Shown here in pieces: positions 2,254 through 60,798 of a stretch of 64,000 nt of DNA. Source of the stretch: Fluviicoccus sp. (GTDB taxonomy: Bacteria > Pseudomonadota > Gammaproteobacteria > Pseudomonadales > Moraxellaceae); assembly GCF_030646115.1 (NCBI RefSeq), contig NZ_JAUSMX010000015.1, positions 248,001-312,000 of the forward strand, written 5' to 3'. Made by a program: the position numbers and the translations under genes. The notes below the pieces were generated by a model. The model was not told the origin of the DNA, did no database searches, and saw nothing but the letters and a program-made list of their open reading frames with translations. How positions within the stretch are numbered: the first letter of the stretch is position 1; each line of letters starts with the position of its first letter.

Positions 2254-2285
2254 CATGGGTAAAGCAGGAGGGGTTTAGCTTCTGT

Positions 2286-4347: not shown

Positions 4348-4489
4348 GGTCCGGCTCCGGGCTGAGTGATGGGGGAAAATGGCCTCATCACGAGCATGCG
4401 GGAAATCCGGCCATCTGCCTATCAGTTTTGCCGAAGACGGGAAAAATGCAAATGGGATTGGCGGCCAATCCGTGGCCGGATGTCACACC

Positions 4490-5275: not shown

Positions 5276-5312
5276 GGGATGACTCCTGGAAAGTGACGGT
5301 TCGGTAGTGGGG

Positions 5313-29531: not shown

Positions 29532-30254
29532 TTAGTCCTCCGTGATGCGGTAGGGAAAAGGCTCCTCGAATTTAGCGAGCTTGGCCAGTCTGCGCATACC
29601 CAGAACCGACACATAAGGGGCATTGCGCATGATGGCGTTGACCGCCCAGGACGGGATATTTCCCCCCGGATTTATCGAACCCTCCAATTCCAGCCGTGTT
29701 TCCGCACCCATCGGCGTCAGCTTGATGTCAAAGGTGAATTCAGGAACCCGCACCAGGCCGGAAGACAGAGGCAGGACATTCGGAGCCGCATCAATGTGGA
29801 AAGTGAGATAGCCGCGCTTCTTCGAATACGGCTGTGCCTGCAGGCGCAATACAATGTCACGATCCGGCACAGGCTGCGGCACGTTGACTTTCAGGTAAGC
29901 GTAAAATTCGGTGTCGGATATCTTTTTGACCTGCCGGGACTCAAAGCATTCCCAGAAGTAGCGCTGCAGGTTGTCTGCATCCAGAATGGTCTTGGCGACG
30001 CGCTCCATCGGGGAGTCCATGATCGCTTCAAGCTTGAAAGAACGGACGGCCTTGCCATCCTCAATCTTGTACCAGGCCACGATATTGGTTCGGCGGTCAT
30101 CGCGGATCTTGATCCACTGGTTGCGTACTGCCCGTTCCTGAAACTGGTCAAGGCCATCATCATCATTATTAGTATTGGCAGCCATCGCGACCCAGGGCTG
30201 CATGCCCATGAACAACGCCAGCAAGCCGGCCCCCATCACCTTCCGCATTTTCAT
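29532..30254 (-). CDS. Exported START-domain (SRPBCC) protein, paralog A
   Basis: Signal peptide MKMRKVMGAGLLALFMGMQPWVAMA; START-like body; INPGGNIPSWAVNAIMRNAPYVSVLGMRRL is paralogous to 54489-55217. Confidence 0.8.
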   Translation of the reverse strand: MKMRKVMGAGLLALFMGMQPWVAMAANTNNDDDGLDQFQERAVRNQWIKIRDDRRTNIVAWYKIEDGKAVRSFKLEAIMDSPMERVAKTILDADNLQRYFWECFESRQVKKISDTEFYAYLKVNVPQPVPDRDIVLRLQAQPYSKKRGYLTFHIDAAPNVLPLSSGLVRVPEFTFDIKLTPMGAETRLELEGSINPGGNIPSWAVNAIMRNAPYVSVLGMRRLAKLAKFEEPFPYRITED

Positions 30255-30662: not shown

Positions 30663-33600
30663 ATGACCTTTGCCGACACTGCCCGATTCCGCCTATCGTG
30701 TATCGCCGCGTTGCTATCCCTGAGCGGACAGAGTATTTCCGCACACCCGGAGCCCAGGGCTCCGGAAAACAGCTATAACTGGTACAACGACCGGCCCCTG
30801 ATCAATTCCGCGTATGCCCTCGGGGTTTCGCAATGGAACTTTCTGCAATATTACGCCGAGGCGAAAGCACGTTATGGCGCCTTGCCGCCGGCCGACCAGC
30901 TCGCCAGTGCCAGTGCCGGTTGGAACCAGTATATTTCCTCCAATATCCCCGGCCTGAGCACCGTCATCGTCAATAACAATCCCCCGGACAATGGCGGTGG
31001 CTGGACGATTGCCACCCCCTTGATCCCATTGGTCAACCGCGTGGTCACACCCGTCAACCTGACCGAGGGGTTCCGCAAGCCGCTGCTGCCGCCGATGCGC
31101 CTGACGCACGACGGACGCATCGGCGTGGTTCCCGGCAGCGGCGGCCTGGACGGTAGTCCGCAACCGCTGCGCATCCGGCTCAATCGTCCGGAAGTCCTGA
31201 ACAAACACTTTCTGCAGAGCGCGGCGAGCGTGCCGACACTGGATCCGGTCACCTGGGAAGTCACCGACCACAACAAATGGGGCATGCCCGGCAGCAAGAC
31301 CACGCATTTCGTGTCCATCTGCGAAGGTGAACCGAAAACGCCTGCGGAGAGAAACCCCTACACCTGTGGCATCAACGGACAGGATGACTGCTACAAGCTG
31401 ACGCTGGTCGGCAGCGCCGTCAAGGACACCTTCAGCACCTCTGCCATCTATTCGCTTAAGGATGGCTATCGAACCCTCTATATGCCGCAACTGGAAAAAG
31501 AGGATCGTCTGTACAGCCGGGAGATGACGGTCCGGGTCAGCCTACCAAAAACCGCGCAAGCCAAAATCGCGGAAGTGACGTTCAGCCCGGACCACAAGGA
31601 AGCGCCCATTCGCCAAGGGATCCTGTTTGAACTGAACACCCCGGCGGACGGCCGTATTCTGGTGACCCGGCGGCAAGGACTGCCGCTGGTCTGGCGCCAT
31701 TCGACCACCGGCCTGATGCGCGCCGGCAGCTACGAAATGGTCTATGCCGTGGCGCCCAAGACCGCCGCCCCGTGCGATGTCACCCAATGGGGTGATTTGA
31801 AACCCATTACACATGCCCCCTTCGATCCGGAAGTCAGGGACCGGTATGCGTTCGCCAAGTATCCGTTCCGCGATCCAATGGGCAACCTCATAACCGACGG
31901 CGAGGACATCAAGGCCACCTATCCCTGGCTGGACAAGGACGCCAAGAACCTGTCGCTGATGATCAGCGACGCCAATCTCTTCCGGGACGGTTTCCTGTTC
32001 GATAATTCCCGTTTCCCCAACCGTTGTGTCAACAGCGACTGCACACCCGGTGACTCGCCGGACAAGAGCAATGTCAGCCAGTTCGCCCTGATGGGGGCAT
32101 GGACCAAAGGCAAGATGGCCGTTATTGACAACCGGCTGAACTACGCCGACTTCCGCATCAATCTCGCCAACGCGCTGTACCTGGATCTTTACCAGCCCGG
32201 TTCCGCCTTGCCCGGCACGACCAACAAATCCGCCAGTGTCGAGGTGGGGGCTTACCGGGAAGTCGGCGGCGGCACACCCAAAGACCAGTACATCGCGTTG
32301 AAGGATGAATATGGCAACACCATTCCCGGAGGCGATGGCAAGGCCCTGACCTACCTGATGAAGAACTCGTCGCTGTTCGACAGCATTGAAAACCGCATGA
32401 ACTACAACCCGCACCTGAAGCCCGCCTCGCCGCACGATGTGGTCTGGCTGCTCAGCAGCGGCGCGACGAGCGATGAATTTTCTTTCGACGACCTGCTCAA
32501 CAACAACGCCTTCATCGTCTCGGACATGGTGGCGGCCTACTCGTGGGTCAACCAGAATCCTTTCCGCATGACGGGCTATGATGGCTGGAATGAACTCTAC
32601 GGCTCATGGCGGGGTCAGGTGAAGGTGCAGAATGCAGCCACCACCCTGCCCGACCGCTGGATTGTTCCCCACTCCGGGGATGTGGTGCATGGGCGCATCG
32701 AGCCGGTGGGCAACGGCGGCGTCAAGGGCAAAGGCCTATACTTCAATGGCGATAATACGCGGATATTATACGACATCCCGTCCGGCCAGCCGCACTCCAT
32801 GGCGGCGTCTTCCTGGTTCCACTCCGTGTTCCTGGATGCACGGGGGCTGAGTCCGGATGTGGAGCGGGTGGTCCTCGACTTTCCGGACAAGAGCCGCCTG
32901 ACCATGCTGGATTCCGGCGCAAACGTCACGTTCAAGGCCTATAACAACTTCGGCGAACTGCAGCAGACATTTTCTGTTCCCGCAAGTCTCGTCAAGGCGC
33001 AATGGTTCCAGCTGGGCATCCAGAAATCACCGGCCAACCGGATTACGGTCTTTGTGAATGGCTATCCCTACACGGAATTCCTGTCAACTGCGGCAGACAG
33101 TTCCCTGTTTCAAATGACGGGGGGTGCACTGGTTCTGGGGCGCGCTCACAACAGCTACGACAAGCGCTACTCGAACTGGCTGACCCGGTTGTTCGGGATA
33201 TCGACCGCCACCTCCGCCAACTATGGCGCGTACAAAGGCTGGATGGATGAATACAAGGTTTTTTCCTGGCAGCCCGATCCGGAAACGGCCTGCAATCTGG
33301 CGCACGGTACGCTGCTGGCAACCGGAACTAATCCGCAACTGGCCGAACAGGCCAAGCGGTATTCGTCGGCCATGCATGGCCGCATCACGACAGCGCTCCA
33401 GTTGCGCGGACAACCTTTCTACTCCAGCTATGCCTGCTACATGGACAGCCCGGACCAGGACCGTACAGCCGTGATGCATAGCCTCCCCGCCGGCGCCATC
33501 AGCATCCGCGCCAGCATGCACTTCCCGGAAGGCCCGCTCTACCACGATGCCCCGCGTCCTGACTCCACCACCAACGAATTCTGCCTGATCTGTCATGCCG

Positions 33601-34112
33601 GCAACGAAACCAGCGAAAAAGTCGTCGGGCTGAAGGTGAATGCCCTGGCGTGGAAAAACGTGGCGGCGAAGCTGGATCCGCGTCGTCAACCAACCCAGGC
33701 CCCGCCTTTCATCAGCGGCAACCTTCCGTCCGATTTCCTGAATTCCATCCAGGCCAACTGGGGTGTATCCGGGTCGGGCCTCATTGACGAGTACCTGCAG
33801 CCCGGCAGTAATGGCATATCGCCGGACATCCGCAATCTGGTGACGGTGCAGAACGGCCAGCCGGTGGCGGTGGCGAACTCAGGCGCAACACTTGCCAGAA
33901 GCGGTTTCCGCGCATTACGCCTGAATGCCGGCGGGCTCACCAACCGAGCCATGTTCCAGGTCAGCGGCTCCTTGTCATTCAGTGACACGACCGCCCCGTT
34001 CGAACTGCCGGTGGGCTATTTAAGGAACGGAACCAACCAGGTGACCGTAACGACTTATGCGCCCAACGGACAGCAGAGCTCGCGCGGCTTCAGCATCACG
34101 GTCAGTCCCTAG
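30663..34112 (+). CDS. Large exported protein with LamG-like regions and one CxxCH motif, paralog A
   Basis: AGGAG RBS before ATG 30663; signal peptide; FPEGPLYHDAPRPDSTTNEFCLICHAGNET; KLDPRRQPTQAPPF shared with paralog B. Confidence 0.75.
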   Translation: MTFADTARFRLSCIAALLSLSGQSISAHPEPRAPENSYNWYNDRPLINSAYALGVSQWNFLQYYAEAKARYGALPPADQLASASAGWNQYISSNIPGLSTVIVNNNPPDNGGGWTIATPLIPLVNRVVTPVNLTEGFRKPLLPPMRLTHDGRIGVVPGSGGLDGSPQPLRIRLNRPEVLNKHFLQSAASVPTLDPVTWEVTDHNKWGMPGSKTTHFVSICEGEPKTPAERNPYTCGINGQDDCYKLTLVGSAVKDTFSTSAIYSLKDGYRTLYMPQLEKEDRLYSREMTVRVSLPKTAQAKIAEVTFSPDHKEAPIRQGILFELNTPADGRILVTRRQGLPLVWRHSTTGLMRAGSYEMVYAVAPKTAAPCDVTQWGDLKPITHAPFDPEVRDRYAFAKYPFRDPMGNLITDGEDIKATYPWLDKDAKNLSLMISDANLFRDGFLFDNSRFPNRCVNSDCTPGDSPDKSNVSQFALMGAWTKGKMAVIDNRLNYADFRINLANALYLDLYQPGSALPGTTNKSASVEVGAYREVGGGTPKDQYIALKDEYGNTIPGGDGKALTYLMKNSSLFDSIENRMNYNPHLKPASPHDVVWLLSSGATSDEFSFDDLLNNNAFIVSDMVAAYSWVNQNPFRMTGYDGWNELYGSWRGQVKVQNAATTLPDRWIVPHSGDVVHGRIEPVGNGGVKGKGLYFNGDNTRILYDIPSGQPHSMAASSWFHSVFLDARGLSPDVERVVLDFPDKSRLTMLDSGANVTFKAYNNFGELQQTFSVPASLVKAQWFQLGIQKSPANRITVFVNGYPYTEFLSTAADSSLFQMTGGALVLGRAHNSYDKRYSNWLTRLFGISTATSANYGAYKGWMDEYKVFSWQPDPETACNLAHGTLLATGTNPQLAEQAKRYSSAMHGRITTALQLRGQPFYSSYACYMDSPDQDRTAVMHSLPAGAISIRASMHFPEGPLYHDAPRPDSTTNEFCLICHAGNETSEKVVGLKVNALAWKNVAAKLDPRRQPTQAPPFISGNLPSDFLNSIQANWGVSGSGLIDEYLQPGSNGISPDIRNLVTVQNGQPVAVANSGATLARSGFRALRLNAGGLTNRAMFQVSGSLSFSDTTAPFELPVGYLRNGTNQVTVTTYAPNGQQSSRGFSITVSP

Positions 34113-34118
34113 CACTCT

Positions 34119-34156
34119 GCCCCGCGGCCTGCGGTGAGGGATCACCGCAGGCCGCG
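34119..34156. terminator. 17-bp perfect-stem hairpin after paralog A
   Basis: CCCGCGGCCTGCGGTGA-GGGA-TCACCGCAGGCCGCGGG; no strong U-tract. Confidence 0.55.
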
Positions 34157-34236
34157 GGATTGGCTTGCTGCATTTACCCTGATTAATGCATCGTTCGTTG
34201 ACCAACGGCTGGCGAACTAATCCCCTCCTTGTCCCG

Positions 34237-34302
34237 TGTCCAATTTGCCAAGCGTCCTGTCCCGTTTCGCTGTGTGTCCGCCCCCAACCCAAAAGTATCA
34301 TG
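34237..34302 (+). promoter_or_regulatory. AraC-type operator/promoter, copy B
   Basis: TGTCCAATTTGCCAAGCGTCCTGTCCCGTTTCGC; TGTCC at 34237 and 34258 (21 bp); TATCATG at 34296 (38 bp from second repeat). Confidence 0.75.
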
Positions 34303-34360
34303 CGCAAAATAAAACCATTGGCTCCGGGTATCCGGAAAATCACACATGAGAGGCGGGCCC

Positions 34361-35686
34361 GTGAAAACACGAAATTTCAATCAGCATGGTACTTTCCTGC
34401 TCCTGGCCCTGATGTTGGCGCTATTGCCAATCCATAGTCACGCGGCCGACAAAAATACGGACCGTTTTTGGCACGGATTATATGGACGCAGCTATGACTA
34501 CTACGTCCCCGAAAAAGTCAAACGTAATGCGCCTTTGCTGCTCGTTTTTCACGGAATTTATGGCGACTCCACAAAAGGATGGGCGGAGGTCGGCAACCCC
34601 AGGGATTTGCCTGCACTGGCGGATGAACATGGTTTTGTCATTATGTGGATGGAATCCAGCCAGCAGCTTTTCGGGGCCGGAAAAGCCTGGAATGCGGGGC
34701 CGTGCTGTTTCCCCGCAGGCGCTCTTAACGTAGATGACGTCGGTTACACCCTGGAGTCTGTTAAACGTCTCCGGCAACTGGTGAAGGACAAGGCCGGCAT
34801 TGATGACACTCGCATTTACCTGATGGGGCATTCCAACGGGGCGGCCATGGTGCATCGTCTGGCGCTTGAAAAATCCGATTTATTTACGGCAATTGTTCCA
34901 TCCAGCTTTCCGGTAATAGACAACTTTTCCTGGCATATCCCTGACTGGTGGGTCCAGCGTCGCCCCGTCCCCGTGCTAGCGATGCATGCGACGGATGACA
35001 ATGTCGTTCCCTATGCCGGTCATCAGTTTATCCCCCCTTATTTTACCCTCAAATGGTTCGCCAGCGCCCATGAAGGACTGCAAACCTGGGCCGCCAGAAA
35101 TGGCTGTACTGATCCTCTTTCTGCCAAGGTTCCTCATCCCACAGGTGAGGGCTCTTACACCGAGAGTCGATCACGTTGCCGTCAGGAAGTTTCAGTTAAC
35201 CTTTTGACATTCCCTCAAGGAAAGCACAACTCCCGGTACCCCGAAACCACCGGGGGGGTGGATGTGGTTCGCGATGCCTGGGACTTTTTGTCGAAACACC
35301 GGAAACCGGGGCACAAGTCGGATCGTCTTTGGTCGGGCCAGGAGTTACATCCTGACCAATACCTGACGACCGATGACGGACTGTTCCGCCTTGATGTCCA
35401 GGGTGACGGCAACGTGGTGCTGAAGAACGCCCGGACGGACAGCATCATCTGGAGCTCCGGAACCCGAGGCTCAGGGGCTGACAAGCTGGTATTGCAGCAG
35501 GACGGCAATCTGGTGATATGGAACGAGGGTTACTGGGGTTGGAAAGGCATATTTCCCGCCTATTTCAACGCGCGTGCAGTCTGGTCCAGCAACAGCGCCG
35601 GAAGTGGGGAGTCACGCCTGCAAATCAGCACCAACGGCAAGTTGCAGATCATTCGCAATGGCAAGTCCGTCTGGTCGCAAGGTTGA
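34361..35686 (+). CDS. Secreted PHB-depolymerase/LpqC-like esterase with C-terminal bulb-type lectin domain, paralog A
   Basis: GTG start with GAGAGG RBS; GHSNGAAM nucleophile elbow; C-terminal LDVQGDGNVVLKN, VLQQDGNLVIWNEG repeats. Confidence 0.82.
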   Translation: MKTRNFNQHGTFLLLALMLALLPIHSHAADKNTDRFWHGLYGRSYDYYVPEKVKRNAPLLLVFHGIYGDSTKGWAEVGNPRDLPALADEHGFVIMWMESSQQLFGAGKAWNAGPCCFPAGALNVDDVGYTLESVKRLRQLVKDKAGIDDTRIYLMGHSNGAAMVHRLALEKSDLFTAIVPSSFPVIDNFSWHIPDWWVQRRPVPVLAMHATDDNVVPYAGHQFIPPYFTLKWFASAHEGLQTWAARNGCTDPLSAKVPHPTGEGSYTESRSRCRQEVSVNLLTFPQGKHNSRYPETTGGVDVVRDAWDFLSKHRKPGHKSDRLWSGQELHPDQYLTTDDGLFRLDVQGDGNVVLKNARTDSIIWSSGTRGSGADKLVLQQDGNLVIWNEGYWGWKGIFPAYFNARAVWSSNSAGSGESRLQISTNGKLQIIRNGKSVWSQG

Positions 35687-36039
35687 CCAGCCTGTCTTTC
35701 CTTTAAACAGACGTCATTCATATTCATCACAGGCAGGTGTATTCGGATAGTCCGGTCTTGGTGTTTCCCCGAGTTGAAGCGGCAAGCCGGTCCTGCTTCA
35801 CACATGCGCTAGCGTTACTCCAAGGAAAGCAGAGTCAACGCTGTTTCACCATCCCGGTAAGCCTCTGTTCCGGGACTTCCTGATATGCCGGTTCCGGTTA
35901 GTGCGAAAGTTGCCCTACGTACTTCCGGCTTGCATGGATAAACCTTTTCGTACGCCTTCCAGAGGGCGTGATGAGAACGGGCATTACTAGAAAAATCGCT
36001 CGGTACTTGTATTCAAACCTGTTTTACGGAGTATATGTT

Positions 36040-39000
36040 ATGTGGCTACCACAGCGCACAAGAGTGCTGATACTGTCAGCCCTCTTGCCATCTGTCGTCA
36101 GTTCAAGCGAACTGCCCTACCAGATCGCGGGTCCGACCGGACCCGCCAGTGGGGCATACCCGAACTTGCCGGATGTGCCGGCCATTTTCCGGAATGTCAC
36201 CGGAATCATTGAAGGTGAATTCAGCCGCCCCATTCTGCCGCCGTTGCGCCTTACCAGGGACGGGCGTCTGGGCGTGCACAGCCAGGCCTTCGACCATGTG
36301 CCGGCCCTGGCGCTGCTGCGACCGGAGACGGTCAAGACACCCTTTATCAACAGCGCCAGAGGCGCTACGCCGCTGGTGGACGCCAATAACCCCTATCTCA
36401 AGCTGGATCTGGCAAAACTGGGGGCACCTGATGGGTTTCAGCACGTGACACTGTGTGAGTCCGACCCCGAGGAAAAAGGCCAGCGCGCCAACCCTTATGC
36501 CTGCGGCCTGTCCGGGGCTGATGATTGCTATGATGTGACCCTGGTTGGCGGCATCAATGAGAAGTCGCTGCTTTCCATTCCCGAGCCCACCAATAACGGC
36601 ACCAATCCGAGCTCTTCAGTGGAAACATTGCTGAGCGCGCCATTGACCGTCCGTGTTTCCAATCCCAAGACATCCTGGGCCAAAATAGAGGAAGTCACCG
36701 TGCGCGGCGAGGGCATCCGGCGCAACGACAAGATGCTCTCCGCCCAGTTCGAGCATATCACCCCGGCGGACGGCCGCTTGCTGGTGGTGCGACTGGGCGG
36801 CCAGAAACTGACTTGGTTCAACGAGAACACCGGCGCCTACCAGACCACCGACAGCGTGGACACGGCCTACAGCGTGGCCCCGAAGAGCGCGAATGCCTGC
36901 GACGCAGGCAACTGGAAGAAGTTCTACCCGATTTCCCACGCGCCCTACCATGCCACCATGCGCGAACGCTACAAGTTCGCGGCCTACCCTTTCCGGGACC
37001 CGAAGGGAAATCTGATTCCTGACGGCGCCGATATCAAGGGAACCTATCCCTGGATTGATCACCAGGCCCGTGTCCTGGCCTTGTCCGTGTTCAATTCCCG
37101 CCTGAATGACCACAGCGGCAAATCCCGGTTTCCCACCCGTTGCGTAGTGGATGGCTGCACGGCGGCTGACCGCAAGGATGTCACCGACTCCGTCCATGAC
37201 ATCGGGATTGTGCTGACGGGTTTATGGACCCGGGGCAAGATGGTGGTGCTGGATGGCGTGATCAATGATATTGACTTCAAGCTCGGCCAGCAGGACAGGC
37301 AGCACTCCTATGCACAGCTGTATGCCCCCAACACGGGCAGGTTGGGCAATGAAACCGGGGAGGTCCGGATGGGCAGTACCCGCGGGGTCGGCAGCTACAA
37401 CACGCCCGTCGGCAGCGCCAACAACGGCTCCATTTTCGACTCCATGGAAGAGCGGCTGAACTACCTGCCCAACCTGCGCACGGTGAGCCCGCACGATGTG
37501 AGCTGGCTCGCCAGTACCGGACGTCAGACGGACGAAATTTCCTTTGACGACTATCTGCGCCCCAACGGCTTTATTGTCTCGGAAATGACAGGCGCCCTGG
37601 ACTTCGATGCCGGAAATTCCCACCAGATGCTGTATCACGACGGCTGGGACCTGAATACCCTGTCGTTCAGCGCGCCGGTCTACATGCAGAACAGCGCTAC
37701 AACCCTGCCAGAAGAATGGCATATTCCGACCCATGGCCAAGTGATCGGCGGCCGCCTGGAGCCAGCGGCGCTGGGGGGCTTGCGGGGCAAGGGCCTGTGG
37801 CTGAACGGGAACGGAGCGCGACTGATCTATGAGATCAAGCGGCAACCGCGGAATATCGATGCCTTCCCCTGGTACATGGGCCTGAACATTGAGCCCCGGC
37901 TGGCGGGCGGCGGCGAAGTCACACTGATCCGTTTCCCGGACAACACCTCGGTCAACCTGCTGAACCGCCAGTCGGTTGTCTACCGGAACGCCAGGGGCGA
38001 GGGCCTGAACTCGATACAACTGCCGTTCCCCCTGGCGAACAAGGCCTGGGCGCATCTGGGCATCCAGGTCTTTCCCGGCGGCCGCCGCGTGCAGTTCCTT
38101 CTCAACGGCTTCGTGCTGAATGAATGGACCGGCGCATCCAGCGCACCGGGCCTGTTCCGGCTGTTGCCCGGCCAACTGGTGGTGGGGGCGCCCGCCACGG
38201 CGCAACAGGGGGCATTCCAGGGATGGATCGACGATTTCAAGATCTTCTCGGAGCATTTCAACGCCGAGGAATCGTGCAACATGGCAAGCGGTACGCTCAT
38301 CGGCTTGCCGTCCCAGTACACCGGTGTCTGGCGCGGCAAGGCCGGAGCCTATCCGGCCTCCTCCCATGCCGCTGTCAGCCGGACCCTCCAGATGCACGGG
38401 AAGCAGACCTATCCGCAATATGCCTGCTACACCGACTACAGCGCGGACTATGCCGCCCACAAGTACAACCTGCCCGCGGGCTCCAGCAGTATCCGCGAAG
38501 CCATCATCTTCCCCGAGGGACCGCTCTATCACGACGCGCCGCGCCCCGACTCAGTCTATAACCCGTTCTGCCTGGGCTGTCACACGGCCGGGGGCGAGGG
38601 AGGTCTCGGCTTGAACGCACTGAAGTTCCGCGACATTCCGGGCAAACTGGATCCTCGTCGCCAACCCTCGCAGCCGCCCGCGCTGGTGTGGGGCAACTTC
38701 CCGGCCTCCTGGCTGGCCAACGCCCCCGCATGGCCCTTCAAAACGGGCGAAGGCGGCCTATTGATCGATGAACTCCTGCTGCCTTCCGCAAGCGGCCAGA
38801 AGGCCGAGGTCAAGGCGCTGGTCCTGGTCGACGCGCGGACGGGCCGTGACATCATGCCGCTGACAAACGGCATGGTCCTGAACCTGTCCGCGCTGGAAAC
38901 AGACCAGGTGAACATCCGCGCATCCTCCACGGGACTGACGCGACGCGTGACGTTTGTGCATAACGGCGCATCATCCTACCAGGAACCGCCGTTCGCGCTT

Positions 39001-41532
39001 TTCGGCACCAACAACAGCACGCCGGAGGCCGATTTTGCCGCCGGAACCCTGGCTGCCGGACCCCATACCCTGTCGGCCAAGTCCCTGAATGGCAGCGAAC
39101 TGGTGAATGTCACCTTCACCGTGACCGGATCGTCGGCGAACGTCAGTATCCCCGGCAAGACCGTGTACACGGAAATCCTGCACGAGCAGCGTAACCTGCT
39201 GAGTGCCTTTGTCCAGGAAGCGCGCGACTTCTTCGGCAGCATTGCCGATTTCTTCAACCGCATCGGCTCTTACATCGCCGCTCAGTTCGATTCCCTGCTG
39301 GCCAAGCCGCAAACGGTTGCCCTGGGCAACACCACGCCCGCGTTCAACACGGCGGGAAACGACCTGCAACTCTTCGTGGACTTCTCCGTGCTTGACAAGG
39401 ACCGGGGCATCGTTGAAATGCGGGGACGCGCCTATGGCTCCCATGGCAACACGCTGTTCGTGAACGGTTCCGCCGTGCCGGTTGCAGACAACAAATGGAC
39501 CTGGCGCGGCAACAACCTCGCCGTAAAGGAATACGCCCTCTCGGTCCGTAACGCCAACCAGGCCGAGGAAAAGACCTGGGTCTCGTTCAACGAAGCCAAG
39601 GTCCCCGCCGGCATTGTGGTGCGTCAGGACGCCCGGGCGCTCTCGGCCAGACTGGCATCCACCGTGGACCTGCAGCAAATCGCTGACGAGCTGGCCGCCA
39701 ATGCCGGCATCAACATCTACAGCAACAACCAGGGTTCCCTGAAAATCAAATCGATCAAGCTCGACAGACTCAGCCTGACCGGCTCCACCCGGAGCTTGCC
39801 GGACAGCGCGGTGAACGCGGTGATACCAACCGTGCTGAATGCGCCCAGAATCACGATCAACGCGGAAATGACAATCAAGGGCGACTGCCTTGTCTGGCCG
39901 GTGTGCTGGGGAACCCAGGTCTTCAACAACGACATTGTCTTCAACAACACCCGGGCAAATGTAGATTTTGCGCTGAAGGCCCCACCCGCCGACAAGAACC
40001 AGGTTTTCGCCGTGGGTGTGAACGTGGCGCTTGATCCGAACAGCTTTAGCCTCATCGACAATTCGGACATCAATCCCTGGACGGTGGTCGGACAGATCAG
40101 GCTGAAAATCCGCGAGGCGGCTTTCAACTGGCTCATCAATGAGCGTGTGAGCAAAGCCTTGGAAACCCAAGCCAACAAGCTGGCTGCCAAGGTCACGGAG
40201 GATTCACTGTTTTCACCGGGCTTCAATACCCCAATGGATACCTGGGCCGCCGACAACATCGGCAAGTTCATGCCGCTGTTGCCGGACGGACTCTTTGAAA
40301 CCTTCAAAGCCTTCCAGGCGGCGGGCCTCAGCCTGCAAATGCGGGTCACGGATGCCCGGACCAAGAACAATGACCTCCTGCTGGCGGTGGACGCCGTCGC
40401 CAAGAACTCCACGCTTGACGGCCGGGTGTTCTACGGGCAGCGCCTGACGGACGCCGAGCGCGTGAAGGCGCTGCAGCAAACCGCCGGTACGGTCTTCAAT
40501 GCCCGGGGAGACACCGACTACCTGCACCTTAACGGCCGGTTCAGCGGCTCGCTGCTGGCGGCGCTGACCCAGTCCAACATCTTCAATGAATCGACCATGC
40601 TGGACCTGACAAAGCTCATCGATCTGAAGGCGGTAAAAGATGCCGTGCAATCCGGTGCGGTTGGCAATGACCCGGGGTCGCGGCAGGCATTGAATGCCCT
40701 GCTGGCGAACCCGATCGCCAGCGTGAGCGCATCAGGCCAGAATACCGGTCTGAATGCACAGTTGCGGGTAGCCATCGCCGATGCGCCTTATCAACTGGAT
40801 TCCGGGAACATGAATGTCAATCGCGTACGGATAGATGACGTGGCGCTGACGCTGGAGTCGATCCCCACCTCGCGGGCGAGAATTGAAGGCCTGAAGCCCG
40901 CCACGCTGATGTCGGCGCGGCTGGGAGTGATTCTGAACGTGAGTGGCAATTCCGTGGCGATCGAAGCCATCCGGCTGCATGAACTGAACTCCCCCGGATT
41001 GGTCATGACGCCTGCTGCGTCCAACGCGTTTGTGCGGGCCTTGCTGAACCGGGCGTTGTCCGACCGCGCGCCGCGCGGCTTCCTGTTGGTCAAACGTCAG
41101 GGAACAAACCTTCTTGCCCCCTCCAGGATCAACGTAGCGCTGAACAAGCCAGCCTTCCAATCCTCGATAGCCTGGGGCGGCGACGCGTCCAGAGCCGTCG
41201 ATGGCAATACCGACGGCAATTATTGGAGCAATTCCACCACGCATACCAATGCGGACGCATCCAATTTCTGGGGTGTCAATCTGCAAGGAACTTATGAAGT
41301 GACGGGCGTTACCATCCATAACCGCAAGGATTGCTGCACCGAACGACTGGCCAACTTCACGGTTGAACTGTTTTACCAAGGGAAACGGCAGGCGATTCTC
41401 AATCACCCGTCCGGATTAGCCGGATCTTCGGTGAACATCGATATCAAGGCCTACAATGTCGATCAAGTCCGTGTATGGGGAGTCCCGGGAACCTATCTTT
41501 CCCTGGCGGAAGTGGAGGTCTGGGGACGTTGA
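36040..41532 (+). CDS. Very large exported protein, paralog B: LamG-like/CxxCH region plus beta-rich extension and C-terminal F5/8C-like domain
   Basis: GGAG RBS before ATG 36040; FPEGPLYHDAPRPDSVYNPFCLGCHTAGG...KLDPRRQPSQPPA; C-terminus NVALNKPAFQSSIAWGGDASRAVDGNTDGNYWSN...WGVNLQGTYEVTGVTIHNRKDCCTERLANFTVELF. Confidence 0.78.
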   Translation: MWLPQRTRVLILSALLPSVVSSSELPYQIAGPTGPASGAYPNLPDVPAIFRNVTGIIEGEFSRPILPPLRLTRDGRLGVHSQAFDHVPALALLRPETVKTPFINSARGATPLVDANNPYLKLDLAKLGAPDGFQHVTLCESDPEEKGQRANPYACGLSGADDCYDVTLVGGINEKSLLSIPEPTNNGTNPSSSVETLLSAPLTVRVSNPKTSWAKIEEVTVRGEGIRRNDKMLSAQFEHITPADGRLLVVRLGGQKLTWFNENTGAYQTTDSVDTAYSVAPKSANACDAGNWKKFYPISHAPYHATMRERYKFAAYPFRDPKGNLIPDGADIKGTYPWIDHQARVLALSVFNSRLNDHSGKSRFPTRCVVDGCTAADRKDVTDSVHDIGIVLTGLWTRGKMVVLDGVINDIDFKLGQQDRQHSYAQLYAPNTGRLGNETGEVRMGSTRGVGSYNTPVGSANNGSIFDSMEERLNYLPNLRTVSPHDVSWLASTGRQTDEISFDDYLRPNGFIVSEMTGALDFDAGNSHQMLYHDGWDLNTLSFSAPVYMQNSATTLPEEWHIPTHGQVIGGRLEPAALGGLRGKGLWLNGNGARLIYEIKRQPRNIDAFPWYMGLNIEPRLAGGGEVTLIRFPDNTSVNLLNRQSVVYRNARGEGLNSIQLPFPLANKAWAHLGIQVFPGGRRVQFLLNGFVLNEWTGASSAPGLFRLLPGQLVVGAPATAQQGAFQGWIDDFKIFSEHFNAEESCNMASGTLIGLPSQYTGVWRGKAGAYPASSHAAVSRTLQMHGKQTYPQYACYTDYSADYAAHKYNLPAGSSSIREAIIFPEGPLYHDAPRPDSVYNPFCLGCHTAGGEGGLGLNALKFRDIPGKLDPRRQPSQPPALVWGNFPASWLANAPAWPFKTGEGGLLIDELLLPSASGQKAEVKALVLVDARTGRDIMPLTNGMVLNLSALETDQVNIRASSTGLTRRVTFVHNGASSYQEPPFALFGTNNSTPEADFAAGTLAAGPHTLSAKSLNGSELVNVTFTVTGSSANVSIPGKTVYTEILHEQRNLLSAFVQEARDFFGSIADFFNRIGSYIAAQFDSLLAKPQTVALGNTTPAFNTAGNDLQLFVDFSVLDKDRGIVEMRGRAYGSHGNTLFVNGSAVPVADNKWTWRGNNLAVKEYALSVRNANQAEEKTWVSFNEAKVPAGIVVRQDARALSARLASTVDLQQIADELAANAGINIYSNNQGSLKIKSIKLDRLSLTGSTRSLPDSAVNAVIPTVLNAPRITINAEMTIKGDCLVWPVCWGTQVFNNDIVFNNTRANVDFALKAPPADKNQVFAVGVNVALDPNSFSLIDNSDINPWTVVGQIRLKIREAAFNWLINERVSKALETQANKLAAKVTEDSLFSPGFNTPMDTWAADNIGKFMPLLPDGLFETFKAFQAAGLSLQMRVTDARTKNNDLLLAVDAVAKNSTLDGRVFYGQRLTDAERVKALQQTAGTVFNARGDTDYLHLNGRFSGSLLAALTQSNIFNESTMLDLTKLIDLKAVKDAVQSGAVGNDPGSRQALNALLANPIASVSASGQNTGLNAQLRVAIADAPYQLDSGNMNVNRVRIDDVALTLESIPTSRARIEGLKPATLMSARLGVILNVSGNSVAIEAIRLHELNSPGLVMTPAASNAFVRALLNRALSDRAPRGFLLVKRQGTNLLAPSRINVALNKPAFQSSIAWGGDASRAVDGNTDGNYWSNSTTHTNADASNFWGVNLQGTYEVTGVTIHNRKDCCTERLANFTVELFYQGKRQAILNHPSGLAGSSVNIDIKAYNVDQVRVWGVPGTYLSLAEVEVWGR

Positions 41533-41744: not shown

Positions 41745-42770
41745 TCAGGTAAGCCGTTGACGGTACAGGCCCGGCGTTTCCCCCATCCAACGCTGAAAGG
41801 CCCGCGTGAACGCCGTGACGTTGGCATAGCCCAGTCGGGAAGCGATAAAGGCCAGACTCAGGTCACGACGCCTCAACAGAAATACTGCCTGCTTGAGTCT
41901 TTCCTCGGCCAGCAATTGCCGGAAGGTCAAGCCCTCGGCGGCCAGTTGCCGTTGCATGTTGCGCACGGACATATGCAGCTTCTCGGCCACATGATCAATA
42001 GGCGCGAATCCCAGCACTTCGTCATGCAGCAGCTCACGCACCGCATGGGAAAATCCAGTTTGGCCCACCAAGGCGCGCAGGTTGTTCTTGCATTGCTCAC
42101 GTGCCAATCGTGCTGCCAGCGGGTCTGCCATCAACAGGGGAAAATCGAGATAACTCGCGGGGAACACCATGCAGGGCTTCTTTTGACCAAAGCGCACATC
42201 TCCCGGCAGCAGATGCGCAAATCGGGAAAAATACGCCGGCTCGGCGAAAGGCACCTCCGCGGTTCCCACCAGGCTCAGCCCGGTGACCGCCTTACCCATC
42301 ATGGCAAAGCCCAGCATCAGACTGCAGCATGCGACCTCCTGTTGCATGGGGTTGGGCCAGTCCTGTTCGAAATAGAGGCGCGCTGTATCGCCCTCCACGA
42401 CCAGCCGTATCGCCAGCACACTGGACTGCAACAGGATGTATTGCTGGGCTACTTCCAGGGCCTCCCGGACATTCCGGCACACCATGGCCGCAAAACCAAT
42501 CAGGCCATGGCAGGTAACGGTCATCTGGAGGCCGAGGTGGAAGCCAAGCCCGGGCTCGCCGGTGAGTTGCAGGGCGCGATTCACCAAGGCGACAAAGACG
42601 CCATAGTCCACCTGCCACAAGGGATCCAGCAGCCGCTCCGGATCAATGCCGCTTCCCTCCAGCAAGCGCTCGGCGCTGATGTCCCAGCGCGCCACCACGG
42701 CCGCCAGGCTGCTGACATAGGCTCCAAAGATGGTCGGTCGGGCATGGGAACGATTCATGGCGCGTCGCAA
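41745..42770 (-). CDS. AraC family regulator (arabinose-binding-like N-terminal domain type)
   Basis: C-terminal HTH HMSVRNMQRQLAAEGLTFRQLLAEERLKQAVFLLRRRDLSLAFIASRLGYANVTAFTRAFQRWMGETPGLYR. Confidence 0.9.
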   Translation of the reverse strand: MRRAMNRSHARPTIFGAYVSSLAAVVARWDISAERLLEGSGIDPERLLDPLWQVDYGVFVALVNRALQLTGEPGLGFHLGLQMTVTCHGLIGFAAMVCRNVREALEVAQQYILLQSSVLAIRLVVEGDTARLYFEQDWPNPMQQEVACCSLMLGFAMMGKAVTGLSLVGTAEVPFAEPAYFSRFAHLLPGDVRFGQKKPCMVFPASYLDFPLLMADPLAARLAREQCKNNLRALVGQTGFSHAVRELLHDEVLGFAPIDHVAEKLHMSVRNMQRQLAAEGLTFRQLLAEERLKQAVFLLRRRDLSLAFIASRLGYANVTAFTRAFQRWMGETPGLYRQRLT

Positions 42771-53076: not shown

Positions 53077-54108
53077 ATGACTGAACGCGCCATGCCCAAT
53101 ACCGTCTCGATGGCCTATCTGCAGGCGCTTTTCGACTACACGCGCAGCCGTGGGTTGGCCGATGATTTGCTGCTGAGCGGTGCACCGCTGAATCTGGAGG
53201 ATGGCGAGGCCCGTTGTTCTGAAGCTTTTGCCGCGCAATTGTTCGAGCGGGCGGCAATACTGATGGGCGATGAGACGCTGGGACTGCATGCCGGCGAGAG
53301 CATTCGCCCCGGTCACTACGGGGTGCTTGGTTATGTCCTGATGAATTGTGCAACGCTTGGAGAAACACTTGATTATCTGCTGCGCTATCAAGCCCTGGTC
53401 ATCGAGCTGAAGGGCGGCTTCAGCATCCTGGCAGAAGGAGACAGTATCGTTTTGTCCTGCCCCCCGGACGAGGACTGGCCCATGCGCCAGCTTGCCGAGT
53501 TCAACCTGGCGGCCTGCATCAGCTTCATGCGCTGGGTCACCGGATATGAGGGTTCGCCGACGCGAATCGACTTTAACTACCCTGCACCCTCGACGCTGGA
53601 GGGATATGGCCGCATGTTCAGCTGTGAGCTTCGCTTCGACCAACCCTGCTACCAATTGGCGATCCCTCTGGCATGGCTGCGTATGCCGTTGATCCGGCCC
53701 GACATGACCATGCGCTCTGCGATGCTTCGACTGGCTGAAAAGCAACTTTTAGCGCTACCGCGCGGCGATGACGTGCTTTCCTGTGCGCGCAGCGTGATTG
53801 CCAGCAGCCTCAGCGAAGGGCCTGTGGATCTGGCCGGAGTGGCGAGCCGGCTGGCCATTGGCACAAGAACATTGCAGAGGGAATTGCAGGCCAATGGCAG
53901 CAGTTTTAGCGGTCTGATTGACGAGGTTCGTCAGGAGCTCGCCAAGCGGTATCTCTCCGATTCAACGCTGACCGTTGTTGACGCAGCTTTCCTGCTGGGC
54001 TTTTCCGAGCAGAGCGCTTTTCAGCGCGCCTTCAAGCGGTGGACCGGTCTGACACCGGGAGACTTCCGCCGCAAGCTCCAGCAGCCCAAGACCCAGCAAG
54101 GCGGGTGA
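53077..54108 (+). CDS. AraC family regulator
   Basis: ASRLAIGTRTLQRELQANGSSFSGLIDEVRQELAKRYLSDSTLTVVDAAFLLGFSEQSAFQRAFKRWTGLTPGDFRR. Confidence 0.9.
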   Translation: MTERAMPNTVSMAYLQALFDYTRSRGLADDLLLSGAPLNLEDGEARCSEAFAAQLFERAAILMGDETLGLHAGESIRPGHYGVLGYVLMNCATLGETLDYLLRYQALVIELKGGFSILAEGDSIVLSCPPDEDWPMRQLAEFNLAACISFMRWVTGYEGSPTRIDFNYPAPSTLEGYGRMFSCELRFDQPCYQLAIPLAWLRMPLIRPDMTMRSAMLRLAEKQLLALPRGDDVLSCARSVIASSLSEGPVDLAGVASRLAIGTRTLQRELQANGSSFSGLIDEVRQELAKRYLSDSTLTVVDAAFLLGFSEQSAFQRAFKRWTGLTPGDFRRKLQQPKTQQGG

Positions 54109-54488: not shown

Positions 54489-55217
54489 TCAGCTGTCTTT
54501 GGCATAATCGCTGTAACGAAAGATGGGAAACGGCAAAGGGGTCTGTGCCTTGGTGTATTTATCCTGCGAAATCATTCTTTGAAGCCCCAGCACAATACTG
54601 TATGGAATACTCCGCTGAAGGACATTTGCCGACCAGGCAGGAACGCCCCCACCCGGATTGAAATAACCTTCCGCAACCATACCAACCCTGTCACCCGGCA
54701 AGGGATGAAAACGGATATTGATCTCCTCGCCCGGCATCCGCACCATAGGCGGGTATAAGGGGAGAAAATCCGGATCTGACGTGGCTCTCAAAATCGCATA
54801 CTCTTTGGACTTGGTCTGGGGCTCATAAACAGCGCGCAGCACCGTATCACGATCCGGAAGCCCGAAAGGCGCACGATGGATCATGTAAACAATGTATTCC
54901 GTGGCAGACACCTGCTTAACCAGTTTTGACTCACGCGTCTGCCAGAACCATTTCGTGTAGTTATCGAAATCAAGGAAAACTCGGGCCAGCGCTTCAGGCT
55001 GACCATCCAACTCCGCCTCTACCTTGAAGGAGCGATAGGGCCGACCAGCTTCGAGCCGGTAATACGTCTTGATTTTATGAATTTTATCGTTTTTGGTCAG
55101 CCGCCACTCATTCAACTTCGGTGCCTGAAGCTCGTCCATTTCATCAGAATCCAGCGCCATGACGCCTGTAGAAGCCATGAACAACAGTACAAGAACCGGC
55201 AGCTTCAGAATACGCAT
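54489..55217 (-). CDS. Exported START-domain protein, paralog B
   Basis: Signal peptide MRILKLPVLVLLFMASTGVMA; GYFNPGGGVPAWSANVLQRSIPYSIVLGLQRM mirrors paralog A. Confidence 0.8.
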   Translation of the reverse strand: MRILKLPVLVLLFMASTGVMALDSDEMDELQAPKLNEWRLTKNDKIHKIKTYYRLEAGRPYRSFKVEAELDGQPEALARVFLDFDNYTKWFWQTRESKLVKQVSATEYIVYMIHRAPFGLPDRDTVLRAVYEPQTKSKEYAILRATSDPDFLPLYPPMVRMPGEEINIRFHPLPGDRVGMVAEGYFNPGGGVPAWSANVLQRSIPYSIVLGLQRMISQDKYTKAQTPLPFPIFRYSDYAKDS

Positions 55218-55595
55218 AACAAACCTCAAGGCTAATAATATTGTTTTAAGTCCGTGCCCATTGCAGCCATTCAAATTATTACACTGATGAAAACCAGCAA
55301 ATCATGAAATCAGGCCAATCATTTATTTCATTTAGGCCACTCAGACTGGCGGTATAAAACCGGAGACGGACAGGATGGATGCTGTTTATACGAAAGTTAC
55401 AAACCTCCCGGGGTCGGCTCCTACCCCGAGACGCACAACCGCTGCCCGTACATTTTGCCCCGGGGCAACCTGGCCAACAGACAGCACAGGAAATGAGGGT
55501 GAGCGCCTGCTCTCCTCTCAGAGCGGGCAACAGAATCAAAGGCGGATTCTGGTGGAACAGGTTTCGACGAGTCCATGGAGATTCCGGAAACGGAC

Positions 55596-56759
55596 TTACT
55601 TAAGCTCCGTCTGGCTTGCATGCCGGTTGCGATAGACACTGGGCGACTCACCCGTCTGATCCGCAAACCAGCGACTCAATGACGGTGTATCCTGGAAACC
55701 CAGATGGTTGGCGATGAACGCCAAAGACAGTTCCGGCTGAGTCAGGTATTGCCGGGCCAGCTCCAGGCGCACCTCATGGCTCAAGGCGCGGAAGGAAGTG
55801 CCGGCAGACTGCAGCTTTCTGTGCAGCGAGCGCGGGCTCATGTCCATTTTTTCCGCCAGCGCTTCTTTTGACGCACGGCCACCGGCAATGAGCGTGCGCA
55901 GGTGACGCCGCGCCATGGCGTCGATGTCTTCATCTATGAATTCAAAGGCGGCAAGTTGCTGGCGAGCTCGGGGTTCAAGCGCGGTTTGCAGCGCCGCATC
56001 GGCCGTCACCAATGACAGGTTCAGCGCAACGGCAGGAATACGCAGGAGGTTTTCAGCCGCACCAAAATGGATAGGGCATTTGAAGACTGCCTCATAGCGC
56101 GCCAGCAGCTCCGGTTCCTCGGGCGCAGCGTGCTGGAAATGAACGCATTCAATAACTCCCCGCGCCTCACCGGTGCACTGCTTCACAAACTTGTCGAGTT
56201 GAATAAGATAAAAGTCCGCCGCATTGGCGTAAGCCTCCGGGCTCTTGAACGTCGGTCTGATAATGATATCCAGAAAGCCCGGATGGTGACGCAAGAAAAC
56301 ATCCAGCGTATCCGCATGCAATTTCTTGTAGGCCGAGGCGACTTCGATTGCCTTGCCCAAGGTATCGGATTTTTCCGCAATGAACCCCCACAGCCCCAGA
56401 AAGCTGTTACCCAGACTGACGGCTGCCGCCATGCCTGACAGGGGGTCGCCCATGTGCTTGCACCATTGAATACCAATGACGATGATCATTTCCCAGATAT
56501 GGCCGGGAACATAACCTGGCCTCGGGGTGTCCCGGCGCAGATCAATGTTATAGAACTCCAGCATGCTGTCCACCGGCCCCCCCAGATTCTTGCCGTACGA
56601 GAGAAAGCGCAGCACGTGCTCCAGGGCAATAAAGGTACGCCTGGGGGAATCGGGGTTTGTCATATCGGCATTGTGGCCCATCTTAAGGTGCTCACTTTCT
56701 TGTTTTGTCATCCGAGCGGGTAATAGGCCGCTCTGCCTCATGCCGCCAAGCGCGGCCAT
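55596..56759 (-). CDS. AraC family regulator, divergent from esterase operon
   Basis: MDMSPRSLHRKLQSAGTSFRALSHEVRLELARQYLTQPELSLAFIANHLGFQDTPSLSRWFADQTGESPSVYRNR; exact start uncertain. Confidence 0.9.
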   Translation of the reverse strand: MAALGGMRQSGLLPARMTKQESEHLKMGHNADMTNPDSPRRTFIALEHVLRFLSYGKNLGGPVDSMLEFYNIDLRRDTPRPGYVPGHIWEMIIVIGIQWCKHMGDPLSGMAAAVSLGNSFLGLWGFIAEKSDTLGKAIEVASAYKKLHADTLDVFLRHHPGFLDIIIRPTFKSPEAYANAADFYLIQLDKFVKQCTGEARGVIECVHFQHAAPEEPELLARYEAVFKCPIHFGAAENLLRIPAVALNLSLVTADAALQTALEPRARQQLAAFEFIDEDIDAMARRHLRTLIAGGRASKEALAEKMDMSPRSLHRKLQSAGTSFRALSHEVRLELARQYLTQPELSLAFIANHLGFQDTPSLSRWFADQTGESPSVYRNRHASQTELK

Positions 56760-56833
56760 TCATAGAAAGCGGCCATACTCAGACTTGGCGCAAGCATTGT
56801 GACACAACGCACAAAAAATCTGTACTTGCCCCC

Positions 56834-56899
56834 TGTCCAATTTGCTATGCGCCCTGTCTCGTTTTGCTGTGTCTAAGGGATTTGCCGCGCAGTAGCATG
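56834..56899 (+). promoter_or_regulatory. AraC-type operator/promoter, copy C
   Basis: TGTCCAATTTGCTATGCGCCCTGTCTCGTTTTGC; TGTCY at 56834 and 56855 (21 bp); TAGCATG at 56893 (38 bp from second repeat). Confidence 0.78.
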
Positions 56900-56953
56900 C
56901 GCGTCAATACGCCCACACTGCTTGAGGGGGCAGTCATGACGACAGGAGGACAC

Positions 56954-58279
56954 ATGCTTAAAAGAATGCTCGATTTCAAGGGCCCATCCCTGCTCCTGAC
57001 GCTGGCCATGACGTCAGCACTTATGCCAATGCACAGTCACGCAGCCGTAAAGAAAACGGACAACTTCTGGCACGGAATGTATGGGCGCAGCTATGACTAC
57101 TACGTCCCCGACAACGTTAAGCCCAATGCGCCTTTACTTGTGGTTTACCATGGCATTTATGCCAACTCTGAGAGGTTATGGTCTACCGTCGGCGACGCGA
57201 GAGACCTGCCTGCACTGGCGGAAAAAAACGGCTTTGTCGTTATGTGGATGGAATCCAGCCAACAGCTCTTTGGCGCCGGGAAATCCTGGAATGCCGGTCC
57301 GTGCTGCTTCCCAGCTAATGCACTGCATGTGGATGATGTCGGTTACACCCGTGAGGCCATCAGCCGTCTTCGTGACAAAGTGAATGGCGCAACCTCTATT
57401 GATGATACCCGTATTTATTTGCTGGGGCATTCCAATGGCGGCGCCATGGTGCATCGTCTGGCGCTTCAGGAATCGGATAAATATGCGGCTATCGTTCCGG
57501 TCAGTTTTCCGGTTGTCGATAATTGGACATGGCGGATTCCTGAATGGTGGACTCAGAGTCGTGCCGTTCCGGTGCTTGCGATGCATGCAACGAATGACAA
57601 TGTCGTCCCGTATTACGGTAATCAGTGGATCCCGGTTTCGACCAACTGGTTCTCCAGCGCGCATGCCGGTCTGGAAACCTGGGCGGCCAGAAATGCATGC
57701 ACAGATTCCGTGTCACCCAAAATCCCTCATCCCACGGGCGTGGGCTCCTATACCGAAAGTCACTCCATTTGCCGGCAGGGCGTTTCCGTCAACCTTTTGA
57801 CCTTCCCCAAAGGCCAGCACCGCCCTTGGTATCCCGATGTGAACGGGGGGGTGGATGTCATCAGTGATGCCTGGAATTTTTTGTCGAAATACCGGAAGCC
57901 GGGGCACAAGTCAGATCGTCTCTGGTCCGGTCAAGAGCTGGGACGCAATCAGTTCCTGACAACCGATGACGGCCGGTTCCGCTTGGATGTTCAGGGTGAC
58001 AGCAATGTGGTGCTGAAGAACGCCAATACGAACAGCATGATCTGGAGCTCCGGCACCGGAGGTTCGGGGGCCGACAAACTGGTGTTGCAGCAGGATGGCA
58101 ATCTGGTGCTGTGGAACGATGGCTACTGGGGTTGGAAGGGCATCTTCCCGGTCTATTTCAGCCCCCGGGCGGTATGGTCCAGCAACAGCGCTGGAAATGG
58201 GGAGTCGCGAATGCAAATCAACGACCTTGGCCAGTTGCAGATCGTTCGCAACGGCGTCCCCGTCTGGTCGCGCGGTTGA
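56954..58279 (+). CDS. Secreted PHB-depolymerase/LpqC-like esterase with C-terminal bulb-type lectin domain, paralog B
   Basis: AGGAGG RBS before ATG 56954; signal peptide; LLGHSNGGAMVHRLAL; LDVQGDSNVVLKN, VLQQDGNLVLWNDGYWGWKG. Confidence 0.85.
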   Translation: MLKRMLDFKGPSLLLTLAMTSALMPMHSHAAVKKTDNFWHGMYGRSYDYYVPDNVKPNAPLLVVYHGIYANSERLWSTVGDARDLPALAEKNGFVVMWMESSQQLFGAGKSWNAGPCCFPANALHVDDVGYTREAISRLRDKVNGATSIDDTRIYLLGHSNGGAMVHRLALQESDKYAAIVPVSFPVVDNWTWRIPEWWTQSRAVPVLAMHATNDNVVPYYGNQWIPVSTNWFSSAHAGLETWAARNACTDSVSPKIPHPTGVGSYTESHSICRQGVSVNLLTFPKGQHRPWYPDVNGGVDVISDAWNFLSKYRKPGHKSDRLWSGQELGRNQFLTTDDGRFRLDVQGDSNVVLKNANTNSMIWSSGTGGSGADKLVLQQDGNLVLWNDGYWGWKGIFPVYFSPRAVWSSNSAGNGESRMQINDLGQLQIVRNGVPVWSRG

Positions 58280-58358
58280 CCGGCCGCCACTCCTCCGACG
58301 CCTGCGCCCGCCATTCTCATCCGGGGCAGGCGCAAGCTGATTCACAGGAGCAGTCCCC

Positions 58359-59141
58359 GTGAACAAACGTCTCTTAGTACTGGCGCCCATGATTGCATTG
58401 GGTCTGTATGGCATTGGCTTCCTGGCGGCAAACGATTGGCATATTCCCGTTCAGGCCTTGCATCCAAACGCTGCGGCAGCCCAGCCGGCTGTTCAAAGCG
58501 TAATGATGCCGGGCCATGCCGCCGACACCTCGGAATTCTTGAACACTGCACCGGAAAACCAGGCCGGAGCTCCGGACAGCGGTGCCGCTTTGTCTGGCAT
58601 GCACTACCGGAATATTCAGCAGCCGGCCACCCTCTCTGCCGATGAGGTTGCCCGGATTTACAGGCTGAACGATCTACCTGAAGCGGACGGGCACCTGATA
58701 CATAACAATCGCACCCGCACCATTGTCGAGGATATGGTCATGGCGCTGCCCCGGGAGGACGTACTGGCCGGCCGACACCGTATTGAACAAGCCGTGGCAT
58801 TGCGCCTAGGGCAGCAGGCGGCGTCTGAATTTTCCGCCCTGATCGTGGATTATCTGAAATACCAGGATGCTGTTGCCGCCATTGACGAAGTGCGTAATGC
58901 ACGCGGCTACAAGCCCTCTGATGCAAACGAGAACGACTACTTGCTGCGGCAGCGTCTGCAAAGTGAGGCTTTCGGGCCGGAGAGGGCCGCCGGACTATTC
59001 GGGGTTGAGCGCCAACTGCTGGCGCTCATGGCGAAACAGACGGCCAATGCCGGAGAGTCCCCCGCTGAATTAAGTCCTGCCCAGATAGAAGGCCTGAAAG
59101 CGGAATACCAGGAGATTCTGAAAAACGATGAGAGCCGCTGA
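58359..59141 (+). CDS. Divergent lipase chaperone (LifO/Lif)-like protein
   Basis: GTG start with AGGAG; N-terminal membrane anchor; Pro/Ala-rich linker; HYRNIQQ...DGHLIHNNRTRTIVEDMVMALPRED...ALRLGQQAASEFSALIVDYLKYQDAVAAI and LRQRLQSEAFGPERAAGLFGVERQLLALM resemble Lif architecture. Confidence 0.65.
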   Translation: MNKRLLVLAPMIALGLYGIGFLAANDWHIPVQALHPNAAAAQPAVQSVMMPGHAADTSEFLNTAPENQAGAPDSGAALSGMHYRNIQQPATLSADEVARIYRLNDLPEADGHLIHNNRTRTIVEDMVMALPREDVLAGRHRIEQAVALRLGQQAASEFSALIVDYLKYQDAVAAIDEVRNARGYKPSDANENDYLLRQRLQSEAFGPERAAGLFGVERQLLALMAKQTANAGESPAELSPAQIEGLKAEYQEILKNDESR

Positions 59142-59238
59142 ATGCAGCGTGCTCCTGACAGACCGGGGGACATCCTGCAAAAGTCCCGGAAACTTGTGGC
59201 TGACTGATCCAACCGATAACAAAAGAGGAAACTCCAGC

Positions 59239-60759: not shown

Positions 60760-60798
60760 GAAGGCCTCCATAACAACAATCCGCAAGGAGACAGCAAC

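Follow-up and report, generated by a model that had tools for sequence, protein, structure and literature searches.

Two genes of the window (the whole stretch of 64,000 nucleotides analysed here), designated A and B, encode proteins that, judged from their sequences, belong to a real protein family which is rare, undescribed and without a name in family libraries, and which combines a LamG-type jelly-roll domain with a single CxxCH motif that very likely carries a covalent heme c. We tentatively regard both proteins, with a probability of about 40% for the full mechanism, as lectin-anchored monoheme redox accessories in the breakdown of extracellular polymers or lipids. The delivery of electrons to insoluble extracellular substrates by bacteria is poorly understood, and the A/B family would represent an independent case of a design that joins lectin modules to one heme site. 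As it occurs mostly in genomes devoid of AA10 LPMOs, it could reveal whether such cytochromes have roles beyond feeding LPMOs; should heme prove to be bound with no His/Met pair, the family would also contribute a heme c domain not characterised so far. The two genes and their parts are as follows.

30663 to 34112, forward strand: gene of paralog A, 1149 aa, with LamG domain and single CxxCH, exported-type (open reading frame, translation, relatives)
30663 to 30743, forward strand: putative Sec signal peptide of A, MTFADTARFRLSCIAALLSLSGQSISA (by eye)
31017 to 32700, forward strand: N-terminal beta-rich region of A without a family, residues ~119-679 (conserved residues, strand-rich models)
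32730 to 33272, forward strand: LamG/ConA-like jelly-roll domain of A, residues ~690-870 (PF13385 in relatives, profile match to 5hon, Foldseek)
33522 to 33698, forward strand: conserved block of A, FPEGPLYHDAPRPDSTTNEFCLICH...KLDPRRQPTQ (sequence, family alignment)
33582 to 33596, forward strand: CxxCH of A (CLICH), putative heme c site; sole CxxCH in A, invariant in 22 of 22 members
36040 to 41532, forward strand: gene of paralog B, 1830 aa, 37% identical to A (open reading frame, translation)
36040 to 36105, forward strand: putative signal peptide of B, MWLPQRTRVLILSALLPSVVSS (by eye)
37795 to 38262, forward strand: LamG/ConA-like jelly-roll domain of B, residues ~586-741 (AlphaFold, Foldseek, weak PF13385)
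38509 to 38673, forward strand: conserved block of B, FPEGPLYHDAPRPDSVYNPFCLGCH...KLDPRRQPSQ (sequence)
38569 to 38583, forward strand: CxxCH of B (CLGCH), putative heme c site; sole CxxCH in B, invariant in 22 of 22 members
39358 to 41100, forward strand: ~580-aa module of B, of no known family (comparison with relatives)
41122 to 41523, forward strand: F5/8-type galactose-binding-like domain of B, fucolectin-like (PF22633, E 8e-13; 2j1r, E 2e-25)

The initial annotation had placed two large exported paralogs here and had quoted a set of conserved strings, and both the proteins and every one of these strings have been recovered. A and B appear to be intact, exported proteins that share 37% identity and 53% positives over 1023 columns (BLASTP). 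The longest open reading frame of A opens at 30540, with the Sec-type signal beginning at 30663, and a GTG start further upstream would extend B to 1854 aa; the Sec-type signal sequences of both have been assigned by eye. In the family tree, A groups with Moraxellaceae MAGs and Alcanivorax (support 100/99), and B is found among other gammaproteobacterial sequences, together with L008 and L014 (91/91). Since the two are placed apart, they are not each other's closest relatives, and the pair would represent old paralogs or separate acquisitions and not a recent tandem duplication.

The family comprises 22 distinct near-complete members from Gammaproteobacteria, Verrucomicrobiota and Planctomycetota. 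A and B are the sole copies in their own genome, and one further genome with a copy has been found among 58 near relatives. Scanning the contig collection of GTDB species has yielded 11 loci, which derive from two Moraxellaceae MAGs, Alcanivorax sp. 1008, four unclassified gammaproteobacterial assemblies, a Pseudomonadales MAG, two Verrucomicrobia MAGs and a Planctomycetota MAG. Profile searches have returned near-full-length copies in the own genome and seven others at order level (392 genomes), in one further genome of the phylum sample (399 genomes), and in 4 of 241 genomes of the phylum to which the Verrucomicrobiales member belongs, a count that includes this member. Based on these low counts, the family is rare and patchy. 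Plasmids and viral contigs contain no family match, which leaves a mobile or phage origin without a hit in either, and no description of a family with LamG and CxxCH has been found in the literature. Four extra partial family matches have been observed in Alcanivorax sp. 1008 (L053-L056, on contigs C34, C71, C18 and C37), several of them at contig ends, so that this strain probably has several copies split by the assembly. At L022 (G254:C13), the family match contains one in-frame TGA, and the open reading frame terminates close to where the conserved core does.

Regarding the domain structure, a LamG domain is supported by both profile and predicted fold, in line with the LamG-like region noted before. 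PF13385 matches 7 of 13 family members with a best E of 1.1e-9, and neither A nor B alone attains its cut-off in the Pfam scan (B reaches 17.2 bits, under the cut-off of 27.6); a further profile match connects the region to domain 4 of AbnA (5hon). An AlphaFold model of B residues 42-987, built from 24 sequences, has reached a pLDDT of 82 and a pTM of 0.86, with values mostly >90 in the LamG region; an earlier model of A from 13 sequences was poor (pLDDT 57). Foldseek has returned solely jelly-roll lectin domains, i.e., those of trans-sialidases, AbnA and clostridial toxin binding domains, matches which reflect a widespread fold and are uninformative on function. The N-terminal ~500 aa have no Pfam, NCBIfam or PDB match; they are strand-rich in the models and hold many invariant residues (YPW, W480/G483/K484, D592-V-W, F608-D-D). 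A beta-propeller has been considered for this region, as the top matches combined a propeller with LamG, and was dropped because TM-scores of ~0.2 fit the LamG part alone. The earlier statement that the proteins cannot be assigned to a known family thus holds for the N-terminal ~500 aa and the CxxCH block, both of which lack a Pfam, NCBIfam or PDB family.

The last ~800 aa of B have no counterpart in A, and their content, the ~580-aa module and the fucolectin-like domain, had been overlooked in the initial annotation, as had the location of the esterase between the two genes and its second copy in the window. The module occupies a C-terminal position in B, L008, L014 and L037 and an N-terminal one in L011, L012 and L042. 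It has no Pfam or PDB match, and one may guess from its sequence at an Ig-like domain together with a two-lobed lipid-binding-type (TULIP/BPI-like) fold. The F5/8 domain, which forms the last ~130 aa of B, scores 49.3 bits at a Pfam cut-off of 27.8; it has no equivalent in A, and an all-against-all comparison has shown no match to it in the tail of any relative.

The CxxCH motif lies inside a block common to A and B (FPEGPLYHDAPRPDS..N.FCL.CH...KLDPRRQP.Q). The corresponding DNA pattern occurs 7 times across the window at 6.3 expected matches and hence at chance level, so that the case for a heme site rests on conservation. Cys974, Cys977 and His978 (A numbering) are invariant in all 22 distinct near-complete relatives, down to ~30% identity, and the two cysteines are the only family-wide ones. 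Cysteines 220, 235, 243, 371, 455 and 460 are jointly lost in the Verrucomicrobiota/Planctomycetota clade and in L059, and 877 and 925 have been lost piecemeal in several members; the grouped loss suits disulfides for these other cysteines and not for CxxCH. The own genome encodes CcmF (E 3.4e-122), a component of host heme c maturation. With the motif invariant while other cysteines have been lost, and with CcmF present, heme c is the best reading, and the single heme-c-like site proposed earlier for each protein is borne out as a motif, with the heme being what we infer from it. Apart from the CxxCH histidine, no His or Met is invariant among the 22 members. The nearest distal-ligand candidates are Met622 (21/22) and His905 (19/22), and Tyr923 is near-invariant as well; Lys484, Lys865, Tyr361 and Tyr420 are invariant. 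The Met of RRQPMQP has been ruled out as a distal ligand, as A has Thr at this position, B has Ser, and L037 and L040, which are close relatives of each other, have Leu/Ser. No curated cytochrome c profile matches the block above threshold, with Cytochrome_CBB3 appearing below it in 11 of 22 members (best E 0.018), and in the model of the B core the block shows a pLDDT of 60-87 and little helix.

The nearest known kind is the Cbp2D-type extracellular cytochrome of Cellvibrio and Teredinibacter. In Cellvibrio Cbp2D and Teredinibacter TERTU_3803, single-CxxCH domains are joined to carbohydrate-binding modules (PMC8981238, PMC10916295), and the His/Met heme c domain CjX183 of Cbp2D can act as a slow reductant of LPMOs (PMC8981238). 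Both Cbp2D and Cbp2E are indispensable when cells grow on insoluble cellulose (PMC12542752). For the Teredinibacter relatives, a function as LPMO donor has been judged unlikely, and published work leaves open what the CBM-linked cytochromes known so far do (PMC10916295). Cbp2D, TERTU_3803 and TERTU_2913 (CBM, X158, X122, X183, X132) resemble A and B as large exported modular proteins with carbohydrate-binding or jelly-roll domains and single-CxxCH domains. The suggestion that the combination has no precedent is therefore not fully supported, although the domains themselves are unrelated. The CxxCH block of A and B matches no PDB chain, where X183 structures would be expected, and CBM2 and YceI have not been found by Pfam in A, B or the relatives' cores, which contain LamG and, in B, F5/8 instead. 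The family further differs by having one CxxCH per protein, no conserved distal Met and other neighbours. Since the design is shared but the domains differ and the genomes mostly lack AA10 LPMOs, we have not filed the family as a Cbp2D-type member; this comparison covered X183, CBM2/YceI and the AA10 LPMO. Proteins of the Laminin_G_3/ConA-like type (AbnA domain 4, the lectin domain of trans-sialidases) agree with A and B in the LamG domain, by profile and fold, but the Foldseek TM-scores cover the jelly roll and not the remainder. To our knowledge, no CxxCH block occurs in such proteins. The likeness to fucolectin-type F5/8 (2j1r, E 2e-25) is confined to the last ~130 aa of B.

The genes around A and B are arranged in the order START-like, A, lectin-esterase, B and AraC regulator.

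29532 to 30254, reverse strand: exported START-like protein, divergent from A (named in the initial annotation, no Pfam match)
34346 to 35686, forward strand: exported alpha/beta-hydrolase esterase, scl-PHA-depolymerase-like, with a C-terminal GNA/B_lectin-like domain, between A and B (Pfam/NCBIfam)
41745 to 42770, reverse strand: AraC-family regulator, convergent with B (PF12625/PF12833)

The likeness of the esterase to short-chain PHA depolymerases stays below the cut-off, and scans for promoters and terminators have remained at or below chance. An association of the family with esterase and START genes, raised from the sequence of this stretch, stands in part: the window and Alcanivorax sp. 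1008 each have such an esterase adjoining a family gene, 10 of 12 family-bearing genomes have none, and no relative of the START gene occurs in the neighbourhoods that were compared. In Alcanivorax sp. 1008, the contig of the family gene carries two such esterases and a lipase-chaperone relative, and at its locus L007 lectin-esterases and a carboxylesterase lie near the family gene; a carboxylesterase-like gene is found at L006. Three GH16 genes and a sulfatase lie near the family gene at L060, sulfatases and a CBM6/GH42-like protein at L077, a sulfatase at L044 and L061, and a thiolase, an enoyl-CoA-hydratase-like gene (named by reading) and a DUF35-type protein at L037. Breakdown of extracellular or lipid substrates is the theme that recurs in these annotations, with neighbours varying by clade and no partner gene conserved throughout. 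A TetR regulator adjacent to the family gene and divergent from it has been observed at L005, L006, L043 and L062, with 52-55% identity between the Moraxellaceae MAGs and L043/L062. An AA10 LPMO is absent from the own genome and from 13 of 16 family-bearing genomes (own included) and present in 3 of 16, which leaves a general role as LPMO electron donor unsupported.

In the proposed mechanism, the LamG domain, together with the fucolectin-like domain in B, would tether the protein to a surface that bears glycans or is itself polymeric, and one covalent heme c, seated on the CxxCH block directly after the LamG domain, would pass single electrons between a substrate or partner and the respiratory chain, such that the family would work like Cbp2D. 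We infer heme binding, electron transfer and substrate binding by the domains alike; the reading draws on one family with an invariant CxxCH, a LamG fold, exported-type N-termini, CcmF, and neighbourhoods with esterases or glycan hydrolases and sulfatases. It is in keeping with the known CBM-linked single-CxxCH domains, which bind heme, are slow LPMO donors and form part of proteins that growth on insoluble cellulose depends on (PMC8981238, PMC12542752). Cytochromes encoded near family members also count in its favour: the neighbouring gene at L007 has cytochrome c domains of the HZS_alpha type, and at L038 a DUF1588/DUF1592-type cytochrome is encoded upstream. Several points speak against a redox accessory: the distal side offers no invariant His or Met, as would be usual where a heme transfers electrons, the cytochrome c scores are sub-threshold and the neighbourhoods depend on the clade; moreover, the own genome has no AA10 LPMO and hence lacks the sole partner that has been demonstrated for the known kind.

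As no His or Met besides that of CxxCH is invariant, the heme may be an electron carrier or a catalytic site, and the main rival, which we consider rather unlikely, takes A and B for heme enzymes whose open or non-standard distal site activates peroxide or oxygen; a polymer or lipid, bound by the LamG domain together with the N-terminal region of no known family, would be oxidised. The lack of another invariant His or Met would suit such an enzyme, as would the near-invariant Met622, His905 and Tyr923, the four invariant Lys and Tyr residues, the number of invariant N-terminal residues, which exceeds the need of a passive scaffold, and an N-terminal region that matches no known fold family; no likeness to a known heme enzyme has been found, however, and the ligands may differ among members.

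That the CxxCH block is a highly diverged PSCyt1 or PSCyt3, and the family an outlying branch of the planctomycete multidomain cytochromes, is unlikely. In both, CxxCH is followed by GL.L, and PSCyt1/PSCyt3 occur in some of the same genomes. One-on-one hhalign comparisons with the block have given probabilities of 45% for PSCyt1 (E 2.2e-4 over 38 columns, with RP..CxxCH..GL.L in common), 22% for PSCyt3 and 11% for HZS_alpha. Members are known from Verrucomicrobiota and Planctomycetota, and L038 carries a DUF1588/DUF1592 cytochrome with three CxxCH motifs (891-5458) upstream of the family gene, followed by a DUF1501 gene. All these similarities are nevertheless local to the surroundings of CxxCH, where unrelated cytochromes match too; the likeness spans 38 columns, the MPP motif of PSCyt1 has no counterpart in the A/B family, and Pfam detects PSCyt1 in 0 of 22 members. 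HZS_alpha-like proteins (PF18582) are likewise exported and contain CxxCH, and one of them, with two CxxCH motifs, is encoded at 685-3249 of L007, directly upstream of the Alcanivorax sp. 1008 family gene (E 9e-31). Homology of the block to hydrazine synthase alpha, considered for this neighbour and for a similar motif spacing, has been rejected on profile comparison, which gives 11% and 3% for the block and <1% for the core.

A structural zinc or disulfide site in an adhesive or scaffold protein is improbable. No cytochrome c fold is recognisable, few helices are predicted around the motif and the cytochrome c HMM scores lie below threshold, as such a site would allow, but the His is as invariant as both Cys, no extra invariant Cys or His would complete a typical zinc site, and the proteins look exported in a genome that encodes CcmF. 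Heme c is favoured over a disulfide since CxxCH never varies among the 22 members, its His included, and the remaining cysteines disappear in groups. It is equally doubtful that the family constitutes an undescribed extracellular monoheme enzyme class for oxidative attack on polymers or lipids, which would combine an uncurated heme c domain lacking a His/Met distal ligand with a LamG scaffold and a new N-terminal beta domain, and whose hosts would be lipid- and polysaccharide-degrading bacteria.

A second cluster of the window (54489-62394) contains another esterase, which shares 73% identity with that encoded between A and B, as well as a START-like paralog (54522-55217, 35% identical), an AraC regulator, a lipase-chaperone-like gene, a sulfatase and a gene for a 543-aa protein that has no Pfam match; another AraC regulator lies just ahead of it (53077-54108).
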